Origin: Paenibacillus sp. SZ31
GTDB taxonomy: Bacteria; Bacillota; Bacilli; Paenibacillales; Paenibacillaceae
Direction: 5' to 3'
DNA: 64,000 nt
NCBI RefSeq assembly: GCF_012912005.1
Contig: NZ_JABBEA010000018.1
Location: forward strand, 1-64,000
Positions within the stretch are counted from its first letter, which is position 1, and each line of letters starts with the position of its first letter. The position numbers were made by a program, and so were the translations under genes. The notes beneath the pieces are model-generated. The model was given only the letters and a program-made list of their open reading frames with translations. It did not search any database and was not told the origin of the DNA. This document shows, piece by piece, positions 34,632 to 56,117 of the stretch.

Positions 34632-35747
34632 TCATCGATATCTTTCATATAGCTGGTGAATAGACGATGAAGGCTGTAGTCCGAGTTCTTGAAGCAGAAA
34701 TTGCGTATATTGCTCATAGTAATTATGTAGTGATTGTCGATCTCCCATGGCTCCCAATATATTCAACAACAGCAGTGTCGACTCTTCATCAAACTCATTA
34801 CGCAGTATAATTCTTCTGGAAATGCGCGCGGCTTCATTGAATTGCTTCTGATCGAGCAACCATCTTGCAAGACGCTTGGCGTAAGAAACATATACCATCG
34901 ACAATCTCTCACGTTCCGCTGTCGCCCACTCAAAAGGTTTACCCTCAAACAACTCGCCTGCAAATTGTGTCTCCAATGCTATGGCTTCCGCTTCATTGGC
35001 TGTATTGATTTCGTTCAACTCCGACATAGCCTGTTCGAATCCAATAAAATCAACATCGACTTGATCCAAATCTACCCGATATTGCTCTTGCGCTGATAGG
35101 ATCATCTCTTTGAACCCATGCTCCGATAACACCTTCCTAAGCTGATAGACTATCGTATTCAAGTACGCTTCCGCTTGCTTAAGAGGCCTACCTGGGAAAA
35201 TATCCTCCATAATTCGGGATTTGGTTACACTTCGCCCCCGATGAACAAGCAGATAGGCAAATAGCTCCATGCTTTTCTTGGATCTCCATTTCACTGTACC
35301 CGCTTGCTTGCTGCTCGCCTCAAAGCAACTCAATCCATGAACCGTCAGCCGATCAGGTACAAGGTCATCAGCACGATTAGAAGAAGATCTGCGTCTGCTA
35401 GCTGCCTTGGTGAGCGTCTGAGCCAGTCGTATTCTGGAAATGGGTTTAACCATATAGTCCAATGGATAAACATCGTAAGCGTGAATCGCATATTCTGCAT
35501 GCGAAGTTGTAAACACAATGTCAAGATCATTACATACTGAGATCAAGCTGCGGGCAAGCTCTAATCCATTGTCCGCAGCGATCTGGATGTCCAGGAATGC
35601 GAGATCCACTTCCCTGTTCTTAACGAAATCGAGTGCCTCTGCCGTATTCTGAAAGCTTCCAACAATCTCCACGTCTTGCATATTCGACAGCATTCGCTTC
35701 ATTGCCAACAGCATGGCAGGCTCATCATCCACGATGAGAACTTTCAT
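34632..35747 (-). CDS. response regulator with SARP-type output (REC-wHTH-BTAD)
   Basis: 371 aa from the ATG at 35747, overlapping the kinase stop by four bases. REC domain 1-120: DD pair at residues 7-8, phospho-acceptor D53 (LAFLDIQ), T81, K101 (MVKPI). An OmpR-like winged helix follows at about 145-230 (KSRIMEDIFPGRPLKQAEAY, NTIVYQLRKVL), then a helical BTAD domain to the end. This layout is that of SARP regulators with an added receiver. SARPs bind direct repeats with an 11-bp period, which is what lies upstream of two nearby transcription units. Confidence 0.9.
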   Translation of the reverse strand: MKVLIVDDEPAMLLAMKRMLSNMQDVEIVGSFQNTAEALDFVKNREVDLAFLDIQIAADNGLELARSLISVCNDLDIVFTTSHAEYAIHAYDVYPLDYMVKPISRIRLAQTLTKAASRRRSSSNRADDLVPDRLTVHGLSCFEASSKQAGTVKWRSKKSMELFAYLLVHRGRSVTKSRIMEDIFPGRPLKQAEAYLNTIVYQLRKVLSEHGFKEMILSAQEQYRVDLDQVDVDFIGFEQAMSELNEINTANEAEAIALETQFAGELFEGKPFEWATAERERLSMVYVSYAKRLARWLLDQKQFNEAARISRRIILRNEFDEESTLLLLNILGAMGDRQSLHNYYEQYTQFLLQELGLQPSSSIHQLYERYR

Positions 35748-37474
35748 CTCTCTGTTCCGCCTCTCAAAGTGAAGTGAAATACGCTTCCTTGTCGCACTGT
35801 GCTTTCCGCCCACAAATTCCCACCACTTCGTTGTACGAACTGCCGACTTACGAGTAATCCAAGCCCTGCCCCTTTTTCCCCTAATGTGCCCGCCATGGAG
35901 TTGAGTTGCTTCTCGCCAAATAACTGACCAACTCGCTCCTCTTCCATGCCTACTCCGTTATCACGAACAGATACGATCACCATGTCTCCCGACAACTGAG
36001 CATACACTTCGATTAAACCACCCAATTCGGTGAATTTAATGGCGTTGGTTAACAAGTTACGAATAATTAAACCAACGGTTTCCCTGTCCGCATATACTTG
36101 GGTGCCTACAGCAATCTTATTTATCACACTAATATGTTTGCTCTCACTTTTGATGTGTAACATATGACAACATTCCTCAACCACGTCAGACAGCTCCAGT
36201 AATTCTGGACGAAGTGCCATGTCTTCAACTTGGCTACGAAACCACTCCAACAAGTTATTAGCCATTCCAAGTGTATTACGAATCTGGTCACCCAGTTGCT
36301 CAATGATCTCCTGATGATCAGCAGCGAACGACTGTCTGTCCGCCTCCAGTAACTCCACGAGTTGAAACTGCAGTGCCAGCGGACTGCGAATATCATGCGA
36401 TATGATTGTAAACAGCTGATCCTTCATCTGGTTCAACTGAGCCATCTGCTCCAGATGCCGTTGTTTCTCCGTAATATCGAAAATAAGAGAAATATTGCCC
36501 TGCGCTTTGCCCAGCGTATATAACGGATATACGTTTACACTATAGATTCTTCTTTCTCCATTCAGCCATTTATCAATCTCTACACTCCCTGCTTGCATAG
36601 ACTTGCTCAGCTTATACCATTCTGGCCAAAACGCTAGAATTTCCGATATATTTCGACCCGAAATAGCCCCATAACCCAATTCTGAGAACCACTGTGAAGC
36701 CCGGTTATTACTGTCGATGACCTTTCCTGAACTATTCACAATCACAATACTCTCCTGTAGCGTATCGAGCACAATATTCCTGGCAATCGGAACAGTAGAG
36801 AAGAACTTAATCCGCAGTATAATCACCAGCATGATGGTCCCTGTAGAACCGCAGTAAACCGTTAATGGCAGTAACCAGGATGACCACTCGGGATTCACAA
36901 ATTTGATAACCTCAAGGATAAAAGGTAACGTTGCCAGAAGGAGAACCCACATCCCCGGCTTCCGATAATCACTCCTGATGTTCCTTATATACTGAAACAA
37001 AAAATAAAGGCAAATAACGACTGCACTATAGCAAATGAGGCTGAATGCTCTGGAATAGAGGGTTTTCGTTGTAACTAGGTGCCCATTATAAAGCTCAATC
37101 GTCAGATATATAATATGAAGGTTTGGGTCAAGCCACATAAGCAACGACCACGATGCGAACACGGCAAACAATAGGGCCTTCCATCGGGTCTTCAGCAGCT
37201 TGTCTCGACCGACTAAGTGATAAACGAATAAGATCAAGAAAGGGACCATTACATTTTGCGTCGTATTCTGAATATTGCGAAAAATGAATTTAGTCATTAA
37301 TACATCGCTATGTCTCTCTAAAAGGATACTACTTGAGTACATCATTCGGCATATGATCAAACCGACGAGGTAAATGACTCCGCGCTCTCGTCTAAACCCG
37401 TATACCGTGAATAAAATGATACCCGTCATGATCAATGAAACAATCATAAGGATGAGTTCTACCGTGGAGTTCAT
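35744..37474 (-). CDS. 7TM-PAS sensor histidine kinase
   Basis: 576 aa. Residues 1-215 hold seven membrane helices of the histidine-kinase N-terminal 7TM type. PAS about 225-330 (ESIVIVNSSGKVIDSNNRAS). HisKA H-box FTIISHDIRSPLALQF, HATPase N-box IIRNLLTNAIKF, G1 VRDNGVGM, G2 GAGLGLLVS. Transcribed first, with the response regulator overlapping its end. Promoter TTGTAA-17-TATGAT at about 37.53 kb. Confidence 0.92.
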   Translation of the reverse strand: MNSTVELILMIVSLIMTGIILFTVYGFRRERGVIYLVGLIICRMMYSSSILLERHSDVLMTKFIFRNIQNTTQNVMVPFLILFVYHLVGRDKLLKTRWKALLFAVFASWSLLMWLDPNLHIIYLTIELYNGHLVTTKTLYSRAFSLICYSAVVICLYFLFQYIRNIRSDYRKPGMWVLLLATLPFILEVIKFVNPEWSSWLLPLTVYCGSTGTIMLVIILRIKFFSTVPIARNIVLDTLQESIVIVNSSGKVIDSNNRASQWFSELGYGAISGRNISEILAFWPEWYKLSKSMQAGSVEIDKWLNGERRIYSVNVYPLYTLGKAQGNISLIFDITEKQRHLEQMAQLNQMKDQLFTIISHDIRSPLALQFQLVELLEADRQSFAADHQEIIEQLGDQIRNTLGMANNLLEWFRSQVEDMALRPELLELSDVVEECCHMLHIKSESKHISVINKIAVGTQVYADRETVGLIIRNLLTNAIKFTELGGLIEVYAQLSGDMVIVSVRDNGVGMEEERVGQLFGEKQLNSMAGTLGEKGAGLGLLVSRQFVQRSGGNLWAESTVRQGSVFHFTLRGGTER

Positions 37475-37582: not shown

Positions 37583-37624
37583 TAAAAAAATGCCCCTGAT
37601 ATCATTCTAATGACATCGGGGCAT
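37583..37624 (-). terminator. terminator of the RCC1-SLH gene
   Basis: ATGCCCCTGATATCA / TGACATCGGGGCAT, T7 tract on the minus strand. Confidence 0.88.
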
Positions 37625-37637
37625 TCCTTGGTGTTGC

Positions 37638-40085
37638 TTATTGTATAGATTTCCAAAGTCGCAAGAGTACAACCGCTGCTTCAGCTCTTGTTGTTCGTCC
37701 ATCCGGGACAAATCGCTTACCTTCTTTTCCTTCCAAAAGTCCGTGCTCTCGAGCAGCTTCGACATAAGCTTTGGCCCATGTTGGAATGTGTGCATCATCA
37801 GAGAAGTAGGGGCTATCCGTACTGCCAACCTTCCATTCCATGGCCTTGGACACCATCGTAGCCATCTCTGCACGGCTTACCGTTTGCTTCGGTCTTAATG
37901 TTCCGTCGGGATATCCTTGCAGAACGCCCTCCGCCACGGCTGTCTGGATCGCCAGACGCGCCCATGCCGGAATGCTCTCTGCATCGCTGAAAGATACCTC
38001 ACTTGATTCGGTGCCTATCGGGATCTGAAGTGTCCGCATCAGCATAACAGCGAACTCCGTTCGTGTTACGTTGCCTCTTGGTACAAAGGTCTGGGCATCC
38101 ATCCCCTCCACAATACCCAATTCGGCTGCCTCGCATATATCTGATGTTGCCCAGTGATTCTCGATATCCGTGAACCGACATACCGGAGCTGAAGGAACAT
38201 GATGTTCATCATGGGTCATACGATTAATGGTGACGGTATACGTCTTGATTGTTCCGTCCTCAGCTTGAACCGTAAGGGTTAATACATTGGCACCCATCAC
38301 CAAAGGTACAGTCGTCATCTCACTTATCCGTTCTCCCAACAGCTTCACAACCGCCTTGGGATGGGCTGAAGCTACTTCCAGTTCAACCTGCGCAGCGTCT
38401 GTTTCTACTGTATACGTCGTAGTCCCCGACGTGAACTTAGGAGATAATTCTAATGTCTTTCCGGAATGATAAACATTTATTTTAGCTAAAGCTGCCTGGT
38501 TAGATCGGGATGGGGTTACCGAAGGCGCAACAGGTGAACTACCGCCTTGATCTATTGGGCTCGGTGCTGGTGCCGGCGTTGTGTTATCCAGTAGAAACGG
38601 ATTCGAAACAGCCTCCTTAACATTCCCTACTTTGTCTATTGCGCGAATGTGTAAGTACCATCTTCCATTCCCGCTAGTCTGACTCAACGTATCGCCGTCT
38701 CTAAAGGACAACCAGCCCATTGCCGGAACGGCCGTACTTTGCGTCCACACATATTGTAGTGAATGATCATCTATTCCGCTTTGTAGATCGCTGACCGTTA
38801 CGATGCTTGCTGCAGTTTTCGCTGCGACTACACCACCATTCGTACCAAACTGTACTTCCGGAGACGTTGAATCAATCGCCAGCGTAATGGTATACGTTTG
38901 ACCGGGTAGCATATAAGGCTTCACTTGAACAGGAATGACCGTATCTGTAGTTGCTCCCGCAAAGTTTATCGTCTTCGTGCTGCCAGACGGCAGAATCTCA
39001 CCGTTCACATACATAACTGTCTGGTCCGTGCTTGCCATTGTCGACGTTACATCTACACTGGACAGCGATCGACCGTCGTAATAATACGTATAGTCCATGA
39101 CTGAAGGATCAAAGGATTCTGTGAAATCCCCTTCCTGTAGCTTAAGATCGCTCAGATTGGCATTCCCAGGTACATTCATTTGTCCATCCTGATTATATCC
39201 CCAGGTAATTACGGTACCATCTGACTTTAAGGCAAGCGAATGAAAATGACCTGCAGCGACCGCTACTACTCCTTCTAAGTCGGCTGGTACATTGGTTTGA
39301 CCACTATTATTGTATCCCCAGGCAACTATGGTACCATCTGACTTTAGCGCTAATGAATGATATTCTCCTGCAACAATCGCCACTACTCCGTCTAAGCCCG
39401 CTGGCACATTGGTTTGACCGTCCTGATTAGATCCCCAGGCGACCACTGTGCCATCTGACCTTAGCGCTAGTGAATGAGTTTCTCCTGCAGCGATCGCCAC
39501 TACTCGGTCTAACCCTACGGGCACATTGGTTTGACCCCTATTGTTGCCTCCCCAAGCGACCACTGTGCCATCTGACTTCAGTGCAAGCGAGTGGACGTTT
39601 CCAGCAGAAATCGCCACTACCCCTTCTACAATCACTGGTACATTGGTTTGACCGTCGGTGTTGCCCCCCCAGCCGATAACCGTGCTGTCTGACTTCAATG
39701 CAAGCGAATGGCTGCTTCCTGTGGCGATTGCCACCACATCATTCAAGCCCACTGGCACATTTAGTTGACCAAAGCTATTGTCCCCCCAGCCGACCACCGT
39801 GCCATCTGATTTCAATGCAAGTATATGAAAATACCCAACATCAATTGCAGCAACTTCGCTGAGTCCTAAGGGGACGTTTAGTTGACCTGTCCCCCAGCTA
39901 ACCACGGTACCATCTGACTTTAACGCCATTGAAGCATTCCCTCCTGCGTCTATTTTCACCGCTTTAACAGGTGAAGAAGGGTCTGCAGCATATACTGATC
40001 GCACCTCGAACGGAACGATTGTGCTGAATAACAATACGAAGCTTATAACAAGATAAACCGTCTTTTTCCAATTAAACGATAACAA
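37638..40085 (-). CDS. surface protein: seven RCC1-like repeats, cadherin-like domains, three SLH domains
   Basis: 815 aa; TTG start with AAGGAGAGG upstream; signal peptide to about residue 33. Residues 36-315 contain six full 39-residue repeats plus one short first repeat, consensus VVAIAAGxxHSLALKSDGTVVAWGxNxxGQTNVP, which suits a closed seven-blade propeller. Two cadherin-like beta-sandwich segments follow (NLSDLKLQEGDF..., LAKINVYHSGKTLEL...) around a Pro/Ser linker. Three SLH motifs end the protein (FTDIENHWA, FSDAESIPAWA, FSDDAHIPTWA) and would anchor it to pyruvylated wall polymer. Preceded by the direct-repeat promoter shared with the 40-46 kb cassette. Confidence 0.9.
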   Translation of the reverse strand: MLSFNWKKTVYLVISFVLLFSTIVPFEVRSVYAADPSSPVKAVKIDAGGNASMALKSDGTVVSWGTGQLNVPLGLSEVAAIDVGYFHILALKSDGTVVGWGDNSFGQLNVPVGLNDVVAIATGSSHSLALKSDSTVIGWGGNTDGQTNVPVIVEGVVAISAGNVHSLALKSDGTVVAWGGNNRGQTNVPVGLDRVVAIAAGETHSLALRSDGTVVAWGSNQDGQTNVPAGLDGVVAIVAGEYHSLALKSDGTIVAWGYNNSGQTNVPADLEGVVAVAAGHFHSLALKSDGTVITWGYNQDGQMNVPGNANLSDLKLQEGDFTESFDPSVMDYTYYYDGRSLSSVDVTSTMASTDQTVMYVNGEILPSGSTKTINFAGATTDTVIPVQVKPYMLPGQTYTITLAIDSTSPEVQFGTNGGVVAAKTAASIVTVSDLQSGIDDHSLQYVWTQSTAVPAMGWLSFRDGDTLSQTSGNGRWYLHIRAIDKVGNVKEAVSNPFLLDNTTPAPAPSPIDQGGSSPVAPSVTPSRSNQAALAKINVYHSGKTLELSPKFTSGTTTYTVETDAAQVELEVASAHPKAVVKLLGERISEMTTVPLVMGANVLTLTVQAEDGTIKTYTVTINRMTHDEHHVPSAPVCRFTDIENHWATSDICEAAELGIVEGMDAQTFVPRGNVTRTEFAVMLMRTLQIPIGTESSEVSFSDAESIPAWARLAIQTAVAEGVLQGYPDGTLRPKQTVSRAEMATMVSKAMEWKVGSTDSPYFSDDAHIPTWAKAYVEAAREHGLLEGKEGKRFVPDGRTTRAEAAVVLLRLWKSIQ
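39140..39975 (-). repeat. 117-bp tandem coding repeats (RCC1-like blades)
   Basis: Six in-register 117-bp units and a partial one, encoding the propeller blades. The conserved core LALKSDGT is nearly identical in each unit at DNA level. Confidence 0.8.
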
Positions 40086-40214
40086 TATGTATCCTCTCCT
40101 TCATCCCTTTGACTAGGTGACTAATCCTTGATTATTTTCTATCGGCATATGTCAGAATGATAGCCTTGCTAGAGCATGCTTTTAACCCAGATCCGAGAAC
40201 CATCACTCCTATGG

Positions 40215-40250
40215 ATATTAACAGAGGGCTATGAAAGAATAATGAAAGAA
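40215..40250 (-). promoter_or_regulatory. direct-repeat promoter of the RCC1-SLH gene
   Basis: Read on the minus strand: TTCTTTCAT, TA, TTCTTTCAT (11-bp period, 40231-40250), then a -10-like TAATAT at 40215-40220. Positions 40219-40250 match 46451-46482 at 31 of 32 bases. The 5' leader to the TTG start is about 120 nt. Confidence 0.75.
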
Positions 40251-40338
40251 CGTAGCGATGATGGAACCACGATCCATCCCTACTTCTAACGTATACACTT
40301 GGCTCGAACCAAACTGATCCCCCAGGAAGCAGAAAAAA

Positions 40339-40378
40339 CCGATTAGAGACAACTTTACTTGCAGCTGTCTCTAATCGG
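40339..40378 (-). terminator. terminator of the six-gene cassette
   Basis: CCGATTAGAGACA / TGTCTCTAATCGG perfect 13-bp stem; T6 on the minus strand. Confidence 0.88.
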
Positions 40379-40401
40379 CTTCAACATTTCGCTCTATCAA
40401 A

Positions 40402-42099
40402 TCACTTCAATTCATAAACGAAATCACAATACTTTAGAGTTGATTCTCGATGAGATGCAATGATAACAGTCTGATTATTTAATCTAGACACTGCTCTCAT
40501 CACTTCCTCTTCAAGGCATTCGTCTAATGCGGATGTTCCCTCGTCCAACACCAAGATATCCGGAGAATCGTACACCGCCCTCGCTAGGCCTACGCGTTGG
40601 CACTGTCCCCCGGAAAGAAAGATTCCGTTCTCACCAAGATTGGTGTTTTCACCTTGACCTAACCCTGCAATCATATCTGCTATTTGAGCCACCGATATAG
40701 CATGCGTCATTTTTTCTTTATCATAGTCCCGATAGAAAACAATATTTTCCTTCAGGTTTGCATTCAACAAAAATACTTTTTGGGGAAGATATCCGAAACG
40801 AAGCTTTGCCTCGCTAAGTTGCTCCGTCGTTCCATCTCCATGCTCGATATCGAGTCTTCCGTCATTTGGCACAAGAAGACCCGTCAACAGATTTAACAGT
40901 GTACTTTTGCCTATTCCGGAGGGGCCCCTTAAACCGACAATAGCACCACAAGGAATCTCAACGCTTATTTTCTTCAACACTTCTTTTCCATTCTCATAGG
41001 AAAAAGACAGGTTACTACATACAATTTTGCTGCCCTGATTAAATCTGCCTGTAGTATGTGTATCTTTGTCTTGAACATCTGCGGCATGCGATTTGCTTTG
41101 TGTGTCTTCTTTTAATATCCCTTGAATCTTCTCGTAGAAACCTCCGTCCATTCGATCCAAAACCGAGGAGTTCGCATACAAAGAAGACAAATAACCATTT
41201 ATTCTGGTCACTCCTGGCATAACTCTAATTAAAATCAAGGCTAGAATGGCCATTTTCGACATGACGTCCTCGGATGAGCCATTCGTTACATAAACAGCAA
41301 GAAACGCCATCAACATACAAGCCACCGTAATCAATTCAATCAGATGTCTAGGCAATGTGGAATAGACAGTTTGCTTTACTTCTAAGGTTACATTTTCCTC
41401 GATGTACCCTTCATAGAGATGCTCCACTGCGTCTTTTGCATGATACAATTTCACTTCCTTGATACCATTTATGGCCTCTCTTGTGACGGCACTCATTCGG
41501 TCGAAGCTGTGATTGGAACGTTTTCCGGTCTCTCGCACTTTAGTATAAATAAACCGATGGAACAAGATCATGATAAGAACATACACCAGAATCAAAGCCG
41601 CTGAAATATTGACATTTAGGACGCACATGTAAGCCAAAAGCATGAGAATGACGACAGATTCTGCAATAAACTCCAGCATGCTCTGTATACTCAGGAAGAT
41701 GGAACCCGTGTATTTGTTAATATTATTAATAAGAGCCGACGAATCTTCATCAGTGAAAGATTGATAATCTTGATCCAGGTGCATGCGCAACAATGACTTG
41801 CTTGTATCCTTATATTGGTTAACGATATATTTGCGCTTTATAATTCCTAACCCATATACAAACACGTTTTTTACTAGAAAACATATAAAAACAATTCCCG
41901 CAAAAAAAGCAACTTTGCTAATACTCTCATGATCCCCTTCTAGAATAGTAGAAACAAAAGGAAAAATAAGTGAAATGCTTGCGGTCTCTAACACTGCACC
42001 GATCACATAGAAAAAGACAAGCACGCCAAATTGAATCTGTCGCTTTCGACCAAACAGATTCCATAATGTAAGTAAATTTACTCCGAGTGATTTATTCAA
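40402..42099 (-). CDS. ABC exporter, fused membrane and ATPase domains (PglK/MsbA-like)
   Basis: 565 aa. Six membrane segments in residues 20-310, then an ATPase with Walker A GLRGPSGIGKSTLL, Q-loop YLPQKVF, signature LSGGQCQRVGLARAV, Walker B ILVLDEGTSALD and switch IIASHRES. No C39 peptidase domain at the N-terminus, so it does not cleave a leader itself. The layout is that of lipid-linked oligosaccharide flippases (PglK) or peptide exporters. Last gene of the cassette. Confidence 0.88.
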   Translation of the reverse strand: MNKSLGVNLLTLWNLFGRKRQIQFGVLVFFYVIGAVLETASISLIFPFVSTILEGDHESISKVAFFAGIVFICFLVKNVFVYGLGIIKRKYIVNQYKDTSKSLLRMHLDQDYQSFTDEDSSALINNINKYTGSIFLSIQSMLEFIAESVVILMLLAYMCVLNVNISAALILVYVLIMILFHRFIYTKVRETGKRSNHSFDRMSAVTREAINGIKEVKLYHAKDAVEHLYEGYIEENVTLEVKQTVYSTLPRHLIELITVACMLMAFLAVYVTNGSSEDVMSKMAILALILIRVMPGVTRINGYLSSLYANSSVLDRMDGGFYEKIQGILKEDTQSKSHAADVQDKDTHTTGRFNQGSKIVCSNLSFSYENGKEVLKKISVEIPCGAIVGLRGPSGIGKSTLLNLLTGLLVPNDGRLDIEHGDGTTEQLSEAKLRFGYLPQKVFLLNANLKENIVFYRDYDKEKMTHAISVAQIADMIAGLGQGENTNLGENGIFLSGGQCQRVGLARAVYDSPDILVLDEGTSALDECLEEEVMRAVSRLNNQTVIIASHRESTLKYCDFVYELK

Positions 42100-42158
42100 G
42101 GCAAGTCGCCGCTTTCTTCGTATAGTCCATCAAAACTACTGCACAGTAATTTCAGTCT

Positions 42159-43010
42159 TCACTCGTTGCTCGTTCTATTTCTTGCTATCATGGCCGTAGT
42201 TTGCATTAAGGTCTTCTTAAATGCAGCAATCATATGTTCCACTTCTTTGTGATAATACTCTTGATCACATTCACAATAAGGCAAAATACTTAAATAAAGC
42301 TGCTTGATATCTTCTATCCGTTTCATAGTCTCCGTGAAACTACGCTTCGTACTAGAATGACCGCTACTTCTCCTGCAATATACATGCAGCTCCTCGTTTA
42401 GATAAGCACACTTGCTTCTGCTCGCGATTGGAAGTAGCAGCTGCGGATTCTGATCCACAGTGGATGCCGGAATCTGACGATTCGGATAACAGGAAAACAA
42501 GGCTTCTGTTCGCACCATAAATCGGCCCGCAAGTTCCAAGATACGTTCATGGAACAAATCATCAAATATATCGGACAAAAACGGCTGATTATTTTTTTCT
42601 CTATACATAATCGGATTCTCTGTCTCATCTTTGATTAATCCGTTGCTTCGCACCATATTAATATCAGGATGAGTTAGAAGACACTCTACCTTCTTTTCAA
42701 TACTGTCATCCGTCCAGTAGTCATCCGCATCGCACCAGGTTAATAGTTCGCCGTGGACACTCGGAAGTGCTAGATTTACAGCAGCCACCTGTCCTGCATG
42801 GTTTTGGGATAGAACTTTCACCGATATACCTTTTTCTTCCATTATAACTGCCCGCTCTGTAAGGACCGAGAGTGAATCATCGGTAGACCCGTCATCTACC
42901 AAAATAAGTTCTAACGGCGCATAGGTCTGGTTTTCTACAGAATCTAAGAAGGTGTTTAAATATGGCATGGCATTGTAGATTGGCGTTATGATGGATACTA
43001 ACGGTTTCAT
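42159..43010 (-). CDS. GT2 family glycosyltransferase (cassette)
   Basis: 283 aa. GT-A fold: VSIITPIYNAMPYLNTFLDS, LILVDDGSTDDSLSVL, AAVNLALPSVHGELLTWCDADDYW (DxD-like DADD). The C-terminal half differs from the second enzyme. Overlaps the upstream GT2 gene by four bases. Acceptor unknown. Confidence 0.88.
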   Translation of the reverse strand: MKPLVSIITPIYNAMPYLNTFLDSVENQTYAPLELILVDDGSTDDSLSVLTERAVIMEEKGISVKVLSQNHAGQVAAVNLALPSVHGELLTWCDADDYWTDDSIEKKVECLLTHPDINMVRSNGLIKDETENPIMYREKNNQPFLSDIFDDLFHERILELAGRFMVRTEALFSCYPNRQIPASTVDQNPQLLLPIASRSKCAYLNEELHVYCRRSSGHSSTKRSFTETMKRIEDIKQLYLSILPYCECDQEYYHKEVEHMIAAFKKTLMQTTAMIARNRTSNE

Positions 43011-43672
43011 TCTTTTGACATCCTTTTCCTTAAAATAGCTGCATAATTTTTCATTTCTTCTTCACGTTTTAAACGTCCTGTATTGGTCATATGAAGGCGT
43101 CGCCTTAACGTTACTTGATTGATTTCCCGAACCACGGCTCGTGTTTCCTTCAAACTCATCATCCAATCTACCGTTTCTCCACTTGAAAGATTTTCATCGA
43201 AGTATCCGTTCCGATCAAAGACTGATTTTTTGATAAGCGCGCAGCCCGGCAATACACCGCCATAACCGTTTTCTCTTGCCTTCAGTTTCATCCTTTGTTC
43301 ACTCGATAACTCCGGCGAAATAAAATCTTTTGCCTTTCCATATACAACAACACAGTTCGATTCATCTTCCATGGCAGTAAAAAGATTATCCAATGCATCC
43401 TGAGACAAAACATCATCTGCATCCAGAAATAATACATAATCCCCACAAGCCATCTTGAGTCCGACATTCCTTGCTTTTGCTGCACCACCATGTTCCACCG
43501 AGATCACACGATCACCTAATCTTTGGGCAGTCGCAAAGGATTGATCTTCTGATTGATCATCTACAATAATAATCTCCTTCTCGCCATTCCAGGTCTGGTT
43601 CGATATCGATTCCACTGCTTCTTCTAAATAATATCCCGCATTATATACAGGCATAATAATGGATAGCCTCAT
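43007..43672 (-). CDS. GT2 family glycosyltransferase, short (cassette)
   Basis: 221 aa. LSIIMPVYNAGYYLEEAVES, EIIIVDDQSEDQS, AKARNVGLKMACGDYVLFLDADD, then GCALIKKSVFDRNGYFDENL and GETVDWMMSL. Short GT2 of the kind used in peptide or small-glycan decoration. Four bases after the PqqD-like gene, so tightly coupled. Confidence 0.86.
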   Translation of the reverse strand: MRLSIIMPVYNAGYYLEEAVESISNQTWNGEKEIIIVDDQSEDQSFATAQRLGDRVISVEHGGAAKARNVGLKMACGDYVLFLDADDVLSQDALDNLFTAMEDESNCVVVYGKAKDFISPELSSEQRMKLKARENGYGGVLPGCALIKKSVFDRNGYFDENLSSGETVDWMMSLKETRAVVREINQVTLRRRLHMTNTGRLKREEEMKNYAAILRKRMSKE

Positions 43673-43676
43673 TGTA

Positions 43677-44096
43677 TTAATCCTCTTCTTTTAGCTTAGG
43701 CCATCCCATATCTGCTTCCACATCATGTACAGGGTCTGCCAACAGAAGATCTTGAACCTCCGCGAATTCATTCAACTCAAGGCTGTAATCTCCATGAACC
43801 ACGACAAAATCGCCCAATGATTCTTGGCTGTAAGGTTGATCATCTAAAATAAATATTTCCTTTTCCGTAAGCGCAGCAATAAACCGCTCTACACGCTGAT
43901 CAATATCCACTACACAGTCTTCATTATTTTTAATTGTATCGACAATCTGCTTCGGGTCCTTGCCTTGCATCAACGCATCTAAAACCATCGATCCAAGAGC
44001 ACTTGCTCCATAATACATTCCAGTAACAAAATTGATTATAATGGCTTGTCCGTCAGCAATATCATAAAACATCTTCTCATCATTTAATTTATACAT
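43677..44096 (-). CDS. PqqD-like protein (RiPP recognition element type)
   Basis: 139 aa. Residues 1-85 follow PqqD: YDIADGQAIIINFVTGMYYGASALGSMVLDAL, split as a beta-hairpin plus helix, then DPKQIVDTI and VERFIAALTEKEIFI. Longer than typical PqqD (about 90 aa): the extra C-terminal tail is acidic and ends around LADPVHDVEADMGWP. PqqD-type domains bind peptide leaders in RiPP pathways; in lasso pathways the stand-alone form is the B1 protein. One base after the HprK-like gene. Confidence 0.85.
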   Translation of the reverse strand: MYKLNDEKMFYDIADGQAIIINFVTGMYYGASALGSMVLDALMQGKDPKQIVDTIKNNEDCVVDIDQRVERFIAALTEKEIFILDDQPYSQESLGDFVVVHGDYSLELNEFAEVQDLLLADPVHDVEADMGWPKLKEED

Positions 44097-44097
44097 G

Positions 44098-45135
44098 TTA
44101 AAGTCCCTCCATAAAGTTTTGCAATACGATTACATTCTTCTTAAGGTCTTTACTTAAACGGAACTCATAAACGGGTAAATCCTTCAGTCTGTCCATCATT
44201 CTCTTAACCATTTCTGTATCTCTTCGTCCGCCAATCTGACTTACACTGGAATGAACCAATTTTACCAATACTGAACCTCGGTCCGTCGGCACAATCATTG
44301 GATCGCTTCCCTCTGTAACAGTTGGACACAAAATAGCTTTAATCGGTAATTCTTCCTGAAAAGGATAGGCGGATGCATCAAAGAACTTCTTCCCGTTTCG
44401 CTTTTCCTCCGTCTTGATAACAGGCATGTTCGGTTTCAAAATCTGATACATATCCGAATTCAATCCAACCATTGTATATAGTGGAAGTGCATTTCGTTCT
44501 CCCACTTCATGCATCATAACATAATCATCTGCCACAAAATCTAACCCCTCAAGCAAGCAACTCACCGATAAAGTTGACTTCCCAGCACCACCCCGCGCAC
44601 TTATCAATACACCCTTATGATTAAATCCGACTGCAGCGGAATGCAGAATCAATATGTTCTCCTGCTCTGCCCAAAAATAAAAACATCTTATAAGTGGATG
44701 TCCCAACATGCAATCATCATAATCAGTGCCTGCTTGTCTGCAGAAATAATAGGTCTTCCTGATGTAGTCGGCACCCTCCATCTCCGTACTTCTAGTAACC
44801 TTGATGCTTCCCGTTGCATCCTTTCCCTGATATACATCGGTTATTGCTCCTTCTGGCAGCGGCTTATCGCGAAACGAATCGGGAATATAGACATTAACAT
44901 CATCCGTATAGCACCAGATTACTGCATCCGGCACTACGTATTGCTCATTTGAAAGGACTCTTCCCAAAAGAGATGATCGTATTAATGAAACCTCTATCTC
45001 ATCCCAATATCGAATTTCGAGAACCTTACCTGCTAATCTGATTTGCATATTCTTATAGTACATCCCGTTTTTCTTCAAAATTCGCTTATTAACATCTTCG
45101 AAGAAAGTGGAAATTGTAGCTTTTTCATTATCCAT
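44098..45135 (-). CDS. HprK-related kinase (serine-kinase-like P-loop protein)
   Basis: 345 aa. The C-terminal half has an HPr-kinase-like P-loop, SARGGAGKSTLS (about residue 180), followed by FVADDYVMMHE, where HprK has its Asp pair. The N-terminal half is a family-specific domain. Such kinases accompany PqqD proteins in Bacillales lasso-peptide clusters (peptide-tail phosphorylation) and in other unassigned PqqD systems. It is not the carbon-catabolite HprK, which lacks this N-terminal region. Confidence 0.83.
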   Translation of the reverse strand: MDNEKATISTFFEDVNKRILKKNGMYYKNMQIRLAGKVLEIRYWDEIEVSLIRSSLLGRVLSNEQYVVPDAVIWCYTDDVNVYIPDSFRDKPLPEGAITDVYQGKDATGSIKVTRSTEMEGADYIRKTYYFCRQAGTDYDDCMLGHPLIRCFYFWAEQENILILHSAAVGFNHKGVLISARGGAGKSTLSVSCLLEGLDFVADDYVMMHEVGERNALPLYTMVGLNSDMYQILKPNMPVIKTEEKRNGKKFFDASAYPFQEELPIKAILCPTVTEGSDPMIVPTDRGSVLVKLVHSSVSQIGGRRDTEMVKRMMDRLKDLPVYEFRLSKDLKKNVIVLQNFMEGL

Positions 45136-45173
45136 CCATTATTCTCTCTTTTCTCGCATAGTATTTGTTCTAA

Positions 45174-46331
45174 TCAACGAAGTCTTAACCGTGAGAGAAA
45201 TTTCTGATACAATTTCACGGGTCTATTTAAGTGGTAAAGTTCGGCAACATATTTTGCAAAACACATACCAGATTCTACTTCCTTTAATTCATGAGAATAA
45301 TATCTATACTCCTTTCTGATAGGTTTATATTTTATTCTTAAATGTATTACCCGCAGCGTGATTGAACTATTTTCGTCCGCACGGCGTTCTTTCATATAAG
45401 GCACAATCGTCTCATAAAAATCCATTGCGTCTTTTAGCCATTTGCCATATCCACTATCCACTGCAAATAAAATTTCTGCATCCTCTAACGAAATGTCCTC
45501 TGGAAAACAGGTTGCAAATAATTTCATCATCAAGTGAACCCGATAACTACAATGCAGTTCACTCGCGCGCTTTGCTATTGCTGTCCAGTCCGTGTCAGGC
45601 ATCATTTTCAAGACCATTTTTGCATCAAATAACCACTTCATCCGTCGTTCCGGCATCTCATCAACAAATATGCATCTGGATTGCGAATCTAATATATGGA
45701 CAAACATGTCTAGCGGTGATAATACTCTGAATTTACAGCTATTCACCTCAACCTGTTCAACTCTCTCCCAAATATCACTGCCCTTTTCAAGATTGTTCTT
45801 AAATATGACATGATGAATATCAAACTCCGTCTTTCCCAACTTATATGTAATGGAATGCTTAGCTTCTACTATATACTCCGCACCCATATCTTGAAAAATC
45901 GAAACCGCTTCTTCATATTGTTCGCCCTCGAGCGCAAAGTCTAAATCAGCCATCATTCTAGATACTCCTGAGGCAAAATGTAGACGCATCGCGGCTCCCT
46001 TTAAAAGCAAAGGGTATATATTCTTTTCATTCAACTTCTGTGTACTCATAAAAAGTTTCTGTAGCATCAGGGCATTCTCCACCTGATAATAACGATAGAT
46101 GCCTTTTAATTGCGGGATGACATGCTTCGGAAATCCCATCCAATCGACGTTATACCCAAAATGAGCTAACATCAGCAGATAATTATGATTACCCGTATCC
46201 ATATTCAGACCCTGAAGCTGATCCTCTATTTCTTCTATATTCACGTGTTCCTTAAATAGGAGTGACAGTAATCTTTGCTCGCACGGAACAAGTAGCCGTT
46301 TTTGCAACTCTTTCTCTATCGCTATATTCAT
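45174..46331 (-). CDS. nucleotidyltransferase family protein (NTP_transf_5-like)
   Basis: 385 aa. Core LLLKGAAMRLHFASG followed by MMADLDFALEGEQYEEAV gives the KG and DxD motifs of the family. A second acidic residue comes in EFDIHHVIFK. The remainder is helical (VEVNSCKFRVLSPLDMFVHIL). GAAAGGATAAAAAG ribosome binding site. First gene of the cassette, with a leader of about 110 nt after the direct-repeat promoter. Members often occur with PqqD/HprK-like proteins; the substrate is unknown. Confidence 0.8.
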   Translation of the reverse strand: MNIAIEKELQKRLLVPCEQRLLSLLFKEHVNIEEIEDQLQGLNMDTGNHNYLLMLAHFGYNVDWMGFPKHVIPQLKGIYRYYQVENALMLQKLFMSTQKLNEKNIYPLLLKGAAMRLHFASGVSRMMADLDFALEGEQYEEAVSIFQDMGAEYIVEAKHSITYKLGKTEFDIHHVIFKNNLEKGSDIWERVEQVEVNSCKFRVLSPLDMFVHILDSQSRCIFVDEMPERRMKWLFDAKMVLKMMPDTDWTAIAKRASELHCSYRVHLMMKLFATCFPEDISLEDAEILFAVDSGYGKWLKDAMDFYETIVPYMKERRADENSSITLRVIHLRIKYKPIRKEYRYYSHELKEVESGMCFAKYVAELYHLNRPVKLYQKFLSRLRLR

Positions 46332-46446
46332 ATCTATTCTTTTTATCCTTTCATCTTTATTGGCTTTAATGTACAGTCAAAAACTTATTGAATTTCGTTT
46401 CATTTTTCCCAGCCGGTTTGTTCCATTTTGATTACTTATTTTTGAA

Positions 46447-46482
46447 ATTATAACAGAGTGCTATGAAAGAATAATGAAAGAA
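46447..46482 (-). promoter_or_regulatory. direct-repeat promoter of the six-gene cassette
   Basis: Minus strand: TTCTTTCAT, TA, TTCTTTCAT (46463-46482), 10 nt, then -10 TATAAT (46447-46452). The -35 position falls between the repeats and is non-consensus (ATTATT), as in activator-dependent promoters. Near-identical to 40215-40250. Confidence 0.78.
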
Positions 46483-46590
46483 ATAAACCTGTGGTTTGGT
46501 TCCTACTCATTGGGCAAGGCATCATTATTATTAATGGATGCAGTCAGGGAGGTCCATTAGTTCGAATCACATAGGGATTCGCAGGGGTAA

Positions 46591-49058: not shown

Positions 49059-50665
49059 TCTTCAGGCTCACCTCCATCAGATATGAGTTGTTTTTTTCTG
49101 AAAAGTTGCTGCGGTCAAACTTATCTGACAAAAAAACGCCCCGTCTACTGATTCTTAAAGATCAGTAAACAAAGCGCATAGTTAGAGCCTACCTTCAATT
49201 TCACATGTACATACCTCGTACGATGTCAAAGTTGTGTGCTATAAGATTTATTCGGGTATATAAGGAAGATCCAATGTCTTCGGAACGTTGATGACATGTT
49301 TTTCTGTATATGTGCGGATACCTTCCGCGCCATATTCACGGCCAATACCAGATTGCTTGAAGCCACCGAAAGGAAAGCGAACGTCGAGCCCCTGCACAGC
49401 AGCCGTATTGATCATTGTCGTTCCAGCTTCCAGTTGACGTGCGACGGAGATGGCATCCTCTTCTTTCCCCCACACAGAACTCGTCAATCCATATATGCTT
49501 TCATTGTGTAGATGAATAACCTGCTCTTCATCGTCAAATGGCAGAATCGGAACCGTAGGGCCAAACTGTTCCTCTACTACAATTGGATCATGAACATCAC
49601 AACCCAAAACAAGCGTAGGTTGTAAGTAGTAACCCTGGTCAAACAGCTTCTGATCCAGAATTTGCTCGAGAGGGATGACCTTAGCCCCGCGCTTTTGCGC
49701 ATCTTCCACCAAACCAAGCACATAATCTTTCTGCTTCAGGTTATTAACCGGGCCTACCGTCGTATTTGAATCAAATGGGTCACCAATTCGAATCCAGCGA
49801 TTTGCCGCCTCTATATATTTTTTCACAAACTCATCATAAATAGAACGGTGTACATACACACGTTTGGCGATCATACAGATCTGGCCTGCTGTCAAAAAAT
49901 TAGAAATGACAATCCGACGCATGGCTCGCTCATCATGAACATCAAAGCTTTCCAAGAAGATCGCCGCATCATTACCGCCAAGCTCAAGCGTCATATCCTT
50001 AATCGTTTCCGAAGCTGCTTTGATAATATGCTTAGCGGTCGCGGTGCCACCTGTGAAGGTGATCTTTGTGACATGACGATTGGTAGTCAGTTCAACGCCC
50101 ACATCCGCATCACCATGGACGACATTGATTACACCAGCCGGGAACTCACTCGCAATAATCTCTGCCACCTTCGCTGCCGCCAGTGGCGCATATGGGCTTG
50201 GTTTAAGCACAATGGTGTTGCCCGCAAGTAAGGCAGGAGCGATCTTAATCGTAGATAAAGCAATGGGATAGTTCCATGGACTAATCGCTGCCACCACACC
50301 AATTGGATCATAGGAAAGAATCGTTTTACCATTCTCATGCGCTTTGATCTCTTCCTGTAGAGCCGATTTGGCTTCATTACAAGCAAACTCCATCCACATT
50401 AACGAAACATAAATTTCACCGTGTGCATCATACAGGGGCTTGCCATGCTCTCTGGACAGCAAATGAACAATTTCATTCTCAGCTGCTCTAATCTTCTCGA
50501 TCGCCTTACGCATCATTATAATGCGTTCATCAATGGAGGTCTGCTTCCATGTTTTAAAAGCCTCTGCCGCCGCTTCAATCGCTTCAACGGCTTGTTCTTT
50601 CGTAGTGACAGGGAAATAGCCTACGATCTCAGTTGGGTTTGCCGGATTCTCTTTTGCTAACTGCG
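49039..50665. repeat. direct duplication, copy A
   Basis: Colinear without indels with 54491-56117 (offset 5,452, both 1,627 bp), with scattered substitutions giving perhaps 3-4% amino-acid differences. Contains most of an aldehyde dehydrogenase gene and its downstream region. Confidence 0.93.
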
Positions 50666-50780
50666 TCTCTATAAAACAACTCAACAATAAAGAGAGAACT
50701 TTACTGATTAAAACTTCCGCATCTGAAAAACGTTCATTTTTCAACAATGCACTGACTTCCGGAAGAATCTCCATAAGCAA
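49248..50780 (-). CDS. aldehyde dehydrogenase, chimeric N-terminus (copy A)
   Basis: 510 aa. Residues from LAKENPANPTEIVGYF onward are the aldehyde dehydrogenase: SPWNYP, FTGGTATAKH, catalytic Glu in LELGGND and catalytic Cys in TAGQICMIAKR. The first ~40 residues (MLMEILPEVSALL...LLSCFIETQ) are foreign and replace the native 26-residue N-terminus seen in copy B. They read as the end of another helical protein whose frame continues upstream to about 50840. No normal ribosome binding site context; probably a recombination product of doubtful function. Confidence 0.75.
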   Translation of the reverse strand: MLMEILPEVSALLKNERFSDAEVLISKVLSLLLSCFIETQLAKENPANPTEIVGYFPVTTKEQAVEAIEAAAEAFKTWKQTSIDERIIMMRKAIEKIRAAENEIVHLLSREHGKPLYDAHGEIYVSLMWMEFACNEAKSALQEEIKAHENGKTILSYDPIGVVAAISPWNYPIALSTIKIAPALLAGNTIVLKPSPYAPLAAAKVAEIIASEFPAGVINVVHGDADVGVELTTNRHVTKITFTGGTATAKHIIKAASETIKDMTLELGGNDAAIFLESFDVHDERAMRRIVISNFLTAGQICMIAKRVYVHRSIYDEFVKKYIEAANRWIRIGDPFDSNTTVGPVNNLKQKDYVLGLVEDAQKRGAKVIPLEQILDQKLFDQGYYLQPTLVLGCDVHDPIVVEEQFGPTVPILPFDDEEQVIHLHNESIYGLTSSVWGKEEDAISVARQLEAGTTMINTAAVQGLDVRFPFGGFKQSGIGREYGAEGIRTYTEKHVINVPKTLDLPYIPE

Positions 50781-54490: not shown

Positions 54491-56117
54491 AATGGAGTGG
54501 CTTCTTTATTTCTTCAGGCTCACCTCCATCAGATATGAGTTGTTTTTTTCTAAAAAGTTGCTGCGGTCAAACTTATCTGACAAAAAAACGCCCTGTCTAC
54601 TGATTCTTAAAGATCAGTAAACAAAGCGCAAAGTTAGAGCCTACATTCAACTTAACATGTACATTCCTCGTACGATGTGAAAGTTGTGTACTATAAGATT
54701 TATTCAGGTATATAAGGAAGATCCAGTGTCTTCGGAACGTTGATGACATGTTTTTCTGTATAAGTTCGGATACATTCCACGCCGTATTCACGGCCAATAC
54801 CGGATTGCTTAACCCCACCGAAAGGGAACCGAACGTCGAGCCCCTGCACAGCAGCTGTATTGATCATTGTCGTTCCAGCTTCGAGTTGACGTGCGACGGA
54901 GATAGCATCCTCTTCTTTCCCCCACACAGAACTCGTCAATCCATATATGCTTTCATTGTGTAGATGGATAACCTGCTCTTCATCGTCAAATGGCAGAATC
55001 GGAACCGTAGGACCGAACTGTTCCTCAACCACAATCGGATCATGAACATCGCAACCTAAAACAAGCGTAGGTTGTAGGTAGTAACCTTGATCAAACAGCT
55101 TTTGATCCAAAATTTGGCCGAGAGGGATGACCTTAGCCCCGCGATTTTGCGCATCTTCAACCAAACCAAGCACGACATTTTTCTGTTTCAAATTATTAAC
55201 CGGGCCTACTGTCGTATTTGAATCAAATGGATCACCAATTCGAATCCAGCGATTTGCCGCCTCTATATATTTTTCCACAAACTCATCATAAATAGAACGG
55301 TGTACATACACACGTTTGGCGATCATACAGATTTGACCTGCTGTCAAGAAATTAGAAATGACAATCCGGCGCATTGCTCGCTCATCATGAACATCAAAGC
55401 TTTCCAAGAAGATAGCCGCATCATTACCACCAAGCTCAAGCGTCATGTCCTTAATCGTTTCCGAAGCTGCTTTTATAATATGCTTAGCTGTTGCAGTTCC
55501 ACCTGTAAAGGCGATTTTAGTAACAAGAGGATTACTGGTCAGTTCAACGCCCACATCCGCATCACCATGAACGACATTGATTACCCCAGCCGGAAACTCA
55601 CTCGCAATAATCTCTGCCACCTTCGCTGCCGCCAGTGGCGCATATGGGCTTGGTTTAAGCACAATGGTGTTGCCCGCAAGTAAGGCAGGAGCGATCTTAA
55701 TCGTAGATAAAGCAATGGGATAGTTCCATGGACTAATCGCTGCCACCACACCAATTGGATCATAGGAAAGAATCGTTTTACCATTCTCATGCTCTTTGAT
55801 CTCTTCCTGTAGAGCCGATCCGGCTTCATTACAAGCAAACTCCATCCACATTAACGAAACATAAATTTCACCGTGTGCATCATACAGGGGCTTGCCATGC
55901 TCTCTAGACAGCAAATGTACAATTTCATTCTCAGCTGCTCTAATCTTCTCGATCGCCTTGCGCATCATCATAATGCGTTCATCAATGGAGGTCTGCTTCC
56001 ATGTTTTAAAAGCTGCCGCCGCCGCTTCAATCGCTTCAACGGCTTGTTCTTTCGTAGTGACAGGGAAATAGCCTACGATCTCAGTTGGGTTTGCCGGATT
56101 CTCTTTTGCTAACTGCG
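54491..56117. repeat. direct duplication, copy B
   Basis: Partner of 49039-50665. The left boundary lies just right of the IS3 element, the right boundary inside the aldehyde dehydrogenase 5' end. This copy retains the native gene start. Confidence 0.93.

Follow-up and report, generated by a model that had tools for sequence, protein, structure and literature searches.

A predicted REC-SARP regulon for S-layer-anchored proteins in Paenibacillus sp. SZ31, with a horizontally spread cassette apparently wired into it

Two repeated promoter elements and the genes around them

The window analyzed here, a 64,000-nucleotide stretch of Paenibacillus sp. SZ31 (NZ_JABBEA010000018.1, positions 1 to 64,000), carries two near-identical 32-bp repeats on the minus strand, which we predict to be operators for a response regulator of the Streptomyces antibiotic regulatory protein (SARP) type encoded in the same window. 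The repeats, at 40250–40219 and 46482–46451, had been reported in a preliminary description made from the sequence alone, and both are confirmed, with 31 of 32 bases identical. Each copy reads TTCTTTCAT-TA-TTCTTTCAT, the 11-bp-period direct repeat already described, and is followed after 10 bp by an extended −10 element (TGnTAnnnT); the hexamers TAATAT (40220–40215) and TATAAT (46452–46447) do lie at the same offset, and their extended form (TGTTAATAT, TGTTATAAT) is a point that the preliminary description overlooked. Predicted operator/promoter 1 (40215–40250, minus strand; TTCTTTCATTA-TTCTTTCATAG-CCCTCTGT-TAATAT) faces, on its own strand, the start of a surface-protein gene with S-layer homology (SLH) and RCC1-like domains (37638–40085), which it would drive. 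Predicted operator/promoter 2 (46447–46482, minus strand; TTCTTTCATTA-TTCTTTCATAG-CACTCTGT-TATAAT) likewise faces an NTP_transf_5 gene (45174–46331), the first of an HprK/PqqD/glycosyltransferase cassette that it would drive. Transcription probably starts at 40207 and at 46439, respectively, on the minus strand, at the offset where most sites of this motif have a purine (see below).

All of the genes described here are on the minus strand. The product of the SLH/RCC1 gene is a secreted surface protein with RCC1-like repeats, a cadherin-like part and three SLH domains. Between it and the next genes lies a terminator-like hairpin with a T-run (37590–37628, minus strand; GCCCC...GGGGCATTTTTTT), so the two-component genes that follow probably have their own promoter; these encode a sensor histidine kinase (HisKA_7TM, PAS, HisKA and HATPase domains; 35744–37474) and its partner, the response regulator (34632–35747). 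The regulator joins a receiver to an OmpR-type winged helix and then a BTAD domain, the architecture of SARPs (Pfam Trans_reg_C, 3e-7; BTAD, 1e-8). The top Foldseek matches of its AlphaFold model (mean pLDDT 87.5) are 8k60 and 8hvr, both of them AfsR in initiation complexes (TM 0.77–0.78 by target), followed by EmbR. Receiver residues D7, D8, D53, T81 and K101 are invariant in 27 sequences, and the kinase gene is adjacent, as in a two-component system.

The cassette behind operator 2 encodes, in six genes, the NTP_transf_5 nucleotidyltransferase-like protein, an HprK-like kinase with an intact P-loop (GGAGKST; 44098–45135), a PqqD-like protein (43677–44096), two family-2 glycosyltransferases (43007–43672 and 42159–43010) and an exporter-type ABC transporter (40402–42099), whose best NCBIfam match, PglK, is below the cut-off. 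A strong terminator-like hairpin (40382–40335, minus strand) closes the cassette operon and stands between it and promoter 1.

The motif in the SZ31 genome and across the family

The genome scan that the preliminary description had proposed, run by pattern with the reversed pattern as control, finds two mismatch-free copies of TTCTTTCATNNTTCTTTCAT, and no more, in 6.48 Mb of genome. The remaining 20 matches, each with three mismatches, are on a par with the control (22 in total vs. 14 for the reversed pattern); window shuffles give an expectation of 0.17 matches at up to three mismatches, and searches that add the −10 to the repeat return the same two sites as the only convincing ones in the genome. 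A widespread housekeeping motif is ruled out, the remaining relaxed-search matches in G000 being at control level.

Among 396 genomes of the family, a search with CTTTCATNNTTCTTTCATNGNNNNNTGNTANNNT at up to two mismatches matched 47 genomes, vs. two matches in all for the reversed control. A match in G013 sits within an open reading frame (ORF) and is attributed to chance. A close SARP regulator, defined as a match at E ≤ 1e-100, is present in 33 of the 396. A SARP relative that is more distant (E ≤ 1e-55) occurs in 12 of the 15 motif-only genomes; four of these 12 (G165, G168, G357 and G358, with two-mismatch sites) have the motif directly next to the gene of that SARP (35–41%). When up to one mismatch is allowed, 28 genomes have both motif and close regulator, 5 the regulator only, 3 the motif only and 360 neither (Fisher 1.5e-34, a value inflated by kinship among the genomes, which are not independent, although the presence of motif and regulator is patchy over six genera). 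The perfect motif occurs in 19 genomes with the regulator and in none without it, and the motif at up to one mismatch in only 3 of the 363 genomes that lack a close SARP, so that retention of the repeat by strains without the two-component system, which the preliminary description had held would speak against its proposal, is not the pattern found. In the window's own genus, regulator and motif are each present in 2 of 75 genomes. The motif is thus almost confined to genomes with this regulator or a close relative, and it is very probably the regulator's binding site.

A position weight matrix of 65 non-redundant sites gives the consensus TTCTTTCATWATTCTTTCATWGSNNTNTGNTANNNT, with abrupt borders and, at its core, the direct repeat CTTTCAT-N4-CTTTCAT with 11-bp spacing. 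Positions that the search left unconstrained are also conserved: the two T positions before the first C (75% and 92%), a W-A spacer (A in 70%), and others held as W, S and T (70%). The expected transcription start, offset +41, is a purine in 89% of the sites, and the ORF begins at a median of 55 bp from the −10. A few sites have further 11-bp units upstream, with three or more units in G094 and G360. Position 8 is G in 8 of 15 sites near regulators of the ~43–50% identity clade vs. 1 of 24 near those of the ≥55% clade (p = 0.0008); the variant tracks the regulator clade, although shared ancestry of the sites weakens the independence of the counts.

The operator is not used by all SARP relatives, as the repeat sites at the loci of ~42%-identity SARP paralogues in the same genus (L061–L067) all have at least three mismatches and none has a −10. 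Other repeats of this general kind were also seen. A second class of 11-bp direct repeat, CTTTCATNNNCCTTCATNTTCGGCGGTTACAAT, is found in genomes of the Cohnella group (g2; L097, L104, L109, L112, L115 and L117; position 1501) and is conserved across several of them; no recognizable phosphate genes were found among the ORFs downstream of it. A variant, CTTTYATTATTCTTTTATTG, stands in L200, L204, L232, L233 and L238 before genes for ~435-aa proteins (MPKTTEARKGEESS...) or surface proteins of more than 1800 aa, and may serve a different SARP paralogue as its operator.

Predicted targets, cassette and output-domain variants

The motif is physically linked to regulator genes in several arrangements. 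In one layout it is on the regulator's own strand, 4.5–6.4 kb ahead of the regulator start and before an SLH gene that is followed by kinase and regulator; in another, seen mainly in the ~49%-identity clade, it is divergent and ~1.9 kb upstream. P. luteus and P. paridis have it 255–270 bp before the regulator gene itself, a placement suggestive of autoregulation, and in Bacillus ndiopicus and Lysinibacillus piscis it lies downstream at the SARP locus. Within the flanks examined, a site with up to two mismatches is found near the regulator at 26 of 39 loci with at least 55% identity vs. 2 of 14 with less than 43%.

The genes behind the motif are of one kind. The first gene downstream encodes an SLH protein at 49 of 55 distinct sites with up to one mismatch, vs. 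57 of 999 other ORFs at the same loci; the other six are two apparently interrupted RCC1-like genes, a fragment at a contig end, a gene for a secreted protein in which no SLH domain was detected, and, in two cases, the cassette. Pfam SLH domains were found in 38 of the 39 downstream proteins scanned and cadherin-like domains in 26; at the N-terminus these proteins differ in kind (RCC1, Glug, FG-GAP, LRR_5). Occurrence at many unrelated promoters, which the preliminary description had named as counter-evidence, is therefore not seen: there are two promoters in this genome, and elsewhere the motif almost always precedes SLH-anchored proteins. A 36-base element, a control element by prediction, is shared by the two operons of this soil bacterium, and dozens of related species have it before large surface-anchored proteins. 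Paenibacillus alvei SlhA and related proteins are likewise large, secreted and SLH-anchored and are distinct from the S-layer protein proper, but the N-termini here are of the RCC1, Glug and FG-GAP types, and the portion of that study drawn on here mentions no dedicated regulator (PMC3776848). As a separate observation, two RCC1-like surface genes behind the motif (L189:5979–6413 and L191:465–1769) look truncated by stops or frameshifts, which possibly reflects phase variation, decay or assembly error.

Two genomes of the same genus, G002 and G003, lack the motif and have the same module of SLH protein, 7TM/PAS kinase and response regulator, with a receiver that is 74% identical. The output domain of their regulators (L392:2746–3471 and L393:2748–3473) is a GerE/LuxR helix-turn-helix, not a SARP domain, and no such repeat is found in the region upstream of their SLH gene. 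As judged from these sequences, the pair is a natural output-domain swap; kinase and receiver are kept and the motif is missing, which argues that it is the SARP domain, rather than kinase or SLH gene, with which the operator goes.

The cassette occurs in 1 of the 75 same-genus genomes, and among the 396 family genomes its HprK protein recurs at 92–94% identity in four, of two other genera, corresponding to P. luteus R-3, P. sinopodophylli, P. endophyticus and Cohnella sp. WQ 127256. Operator 2 is conserved upstream of the cassette in all four, as an island of identity (TTYTTTCATTATTCTTTCATARCANTCTGTTATAATTNCAA) with diverging flanks and 5′ leaders of differing length, and all four carry a regulator orthologue with 63–71% identity, vs. 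33 regulator-bearing genomes among the 396; the cassette has been seen only in genomes with the regulator (5/5). Retention of the operator and the presence of the regulator in every host point to horizontal spread of the cassette together with its operator. An HprK-like kinase and a nucleotidyltransferase-like protein also occur together among lasso-peptide tailoring genes, as for paeninodin and pseudomycoidin (PMC9266682), and the cassette adds a PqqD-like protein and an ABC exporter to this pair. Unlike lasso clusters, it has two glycosyltransferases and no leader protease, macrolactam synthetase or precursor peptide that could be found; domains of the B2 leader protease and of the Asn-synthetase-like C protein are in none of its six genes, and a lasso-peptide reading is ruled out. 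Our guess is that it makes a phosphorylated or glycosylated peptide or glycan, which is exported and has its function on the cell surface.

G040, which is labeled as the same species, lacks the cassette and has at its position a tandem second RCC1-SLH gene and an SLH-containing 5′-nucleotidase gene (L028:10744–16228 vs. window 40392–46582), marking a variable surface-gene locus. The motif stands ahead of each RCC1-SLH gene. The RCC1-SLH promoters resemble each other over hundreds of bases, whereas the cassette promoter matches them only over a core of ~33 bp and differs in the flanks, so the shared core looks like a functional site rather than part of a duplicated block, and a simple duplicated segment is rejected. 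Elsewhere in G040, L028:18685–19901 matches two places in the window, 49248–50780 and 54491–55708, suggesting two aldehyde-dehydrogenase-like paralogues.

Proposed regulation and competing explanations

We consider it very likely, judging from the sequences compared, that the SARP-type regulator encoded at 34632–35747, the candidate named in the preliminary description, binds both repeats and that these belong to a kinase-driven regulon. The candidacy of this regulator is strengthened by its co-occurrence with the motif, by the fixed layouts beside SARP genes and by the absence of the motif where the output is of the LuxR type. The 7TM/PAS kinase (35744–37474) would sense a signal and phosphorylate the regulator. 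Two molecules of the regulator would then, as for AfsR, bind next to each other on CTTTCAT-N4-CTTTCAT, the 11-bp repeat would stand in for the −35 at 8 bp (counted from the 11-nt unit) upstream of the extended −10, and the bound regulator would recruit RNA polymerase. The regulon in this species would then consist of two promoters, those of the SLH-anchored RCC1-like protein and of the six-gene cassette, which supports, at the level of prediction, the tie between the two that had been suggested; across Paenibacillaceae, the same regulator family would control a strain-variable set of large SLH-anchored proteins.

SARP regulators are known as antibiotic-gene activators in actinomycetes, and the direct repeats of their target promoters are spaced 11 or 22 bp apart. 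On their sites the 3′ repeat is 8 bp from the −10; two adjacent AfsR protomers occupy two 11-bp repeats, of which the upstream one overlaps the −35, and make contact with sigma region 4 (PMC10936776). The sites described here resemble the Streptomyces SARP boxes (AfsR/afs box, ActII-ORF4, DnrI) in that two 11-bp direct repeats replace the −35 (PMC10936776, PMC10972967) and 8 bp separate the −10 from the 3′ repeat, counted as the 11-nt unit TTCTTTCATNN (TTCTTTCATAG, 8 nt, then TAATAT or TATAAT); some have three or more units. CTTTCAT differs mainly in one base from the AfsR half-site, CGTT(T/C)AT (PMC10972967), and the modeled regulator shares with AfsR, its best fold match, the OmpR-type winged helix and the BTAD domain. 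Unlike the Streptomyces SARPs, it has a receiver and is paired with a histidine kinase, its hosts are Paenibacillaceae and some other Bacillales, and the −10 is extended. Typical SARP targets, which are no structural criterion, are antibiotic and secondary-metabolite clusters, whereas those here are SLH proteins (49/55) and an export cassette. No report of such a regulator or operator was found in the literature on SARP-type regulators in Paenibacillus and Firmicutes and on SLH-gene regulation, a coverage outside which subscription journals mostly fall.

It is improbable that another OmpR/PhoB-family regulator, for example of the PhoP or WalR type, or a SARP paralogue reads the 11-bp repeats and that the linkage is incidental. 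The heptamer does resemble other OmpR-family boxes, such as the E. coli PhoB box CTGTCAT; Pho boxes of the PhoB/PhoP type are also 11-bp-spaced heptamers that replace the −35 and are bound by OmpR-type winged helices; one genome (L105) has a CGTTCAT repeat in front of the gene for an OmpR-type regulator; and further SARP-type regulators are present in this genome. Moreover, AfsR and PhoP share sites in Streptomyces (PMC10972967). Unlike Pho boxes, however, the motif follows the SARP regulator in its occurrence and has surface proteins as targets, it is physically linked to SARP genes in several arrangements, and it is absent where the output domain has been swapped and kinase and receiver are kept. 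PhoP/WalR-type regulators are to be expected in nearly all of these genomes, yet the motif tracks this SARP clade; it precedes SLH genes and is missing from 73 of the 75 genomes of the genus, a comparison made without a direct search for PhoP and phosphate genes.

That the repeat is an SLH-family promoter inherited by duplication with its genes, one copy of which the cassette captured by a recombination that replaced a second RCC1-SLH gene, would require no dedicated regulator, and G040 indeed has such a second gene with the same promoter at that place. We judge this very unlikely: the cassette promoter matches the RCC1 promoters in the core only, the cassette already has the motif in four other genomes, the downstream proteins have unrelated N-terminal repeats, the motif also precedes the regulator gene itself, and the SLH genes of the corresponding G002 and G003 module lack it. 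The direct orientation of the repeats on either side of a clearly mobile cassette (present in 1 of 75 same-genus genomes, absent from G040) would also suit non-regulatory recombination or insertion boundaries of a 6.2-kb element, but the four other cassette genomes have a copy at the promoter end only, and at sites away from the cassette the motif stands before SLH genes in the arrangement of a promoter; boundaries are accordingly disfavored, with hardly any probability left to them.

Several points weigh against assigning the operator to this regulator. Besides the sharing of sites by AfsR and PhoP, the kinship behind the Fisher value and the common ancestry behind the position-8 counts, the genome holds six SARP-type matches at E ≤ 1e-40 (the query included), and other SARP paralogues as well as OmpR-type regulators could read similar heptamers. 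Five regulator genomes have no site with up to one mismatch, and one of these, G362, has none with up to two; related yet distinct 11-bp repeat classes exist in Cohnella; and sequence does not decide between activation, which we favor, and repression.

Taken with these reservations, the assignment to the SARP-type regulator predicts that S-layer-anchored proteins are under a REC-SARP regulon, and that a cassette which has spread horizontally is wired into it. On balance, it seems probable that a kinase-coupled SARP clade of Paenibacillaceae and other Bacillales is a dedicated switch for a variable S-layer-anchored repertoire, that mobile operons join it by carrying the operator, and that some lineages have rewired it from a SARP to a LuxR-type output. 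With a SARP DNA-binding design coupled to a histidine kinase, many Paenibacillus and Cohnella species from soil and plants appear to control which of their giant surface proteins are displayed; the motif offers a ready, testable regulon in about 30 genomes, and the export cassette is thereby assigned a predicted regulator and a probable co-function at the cell surface.

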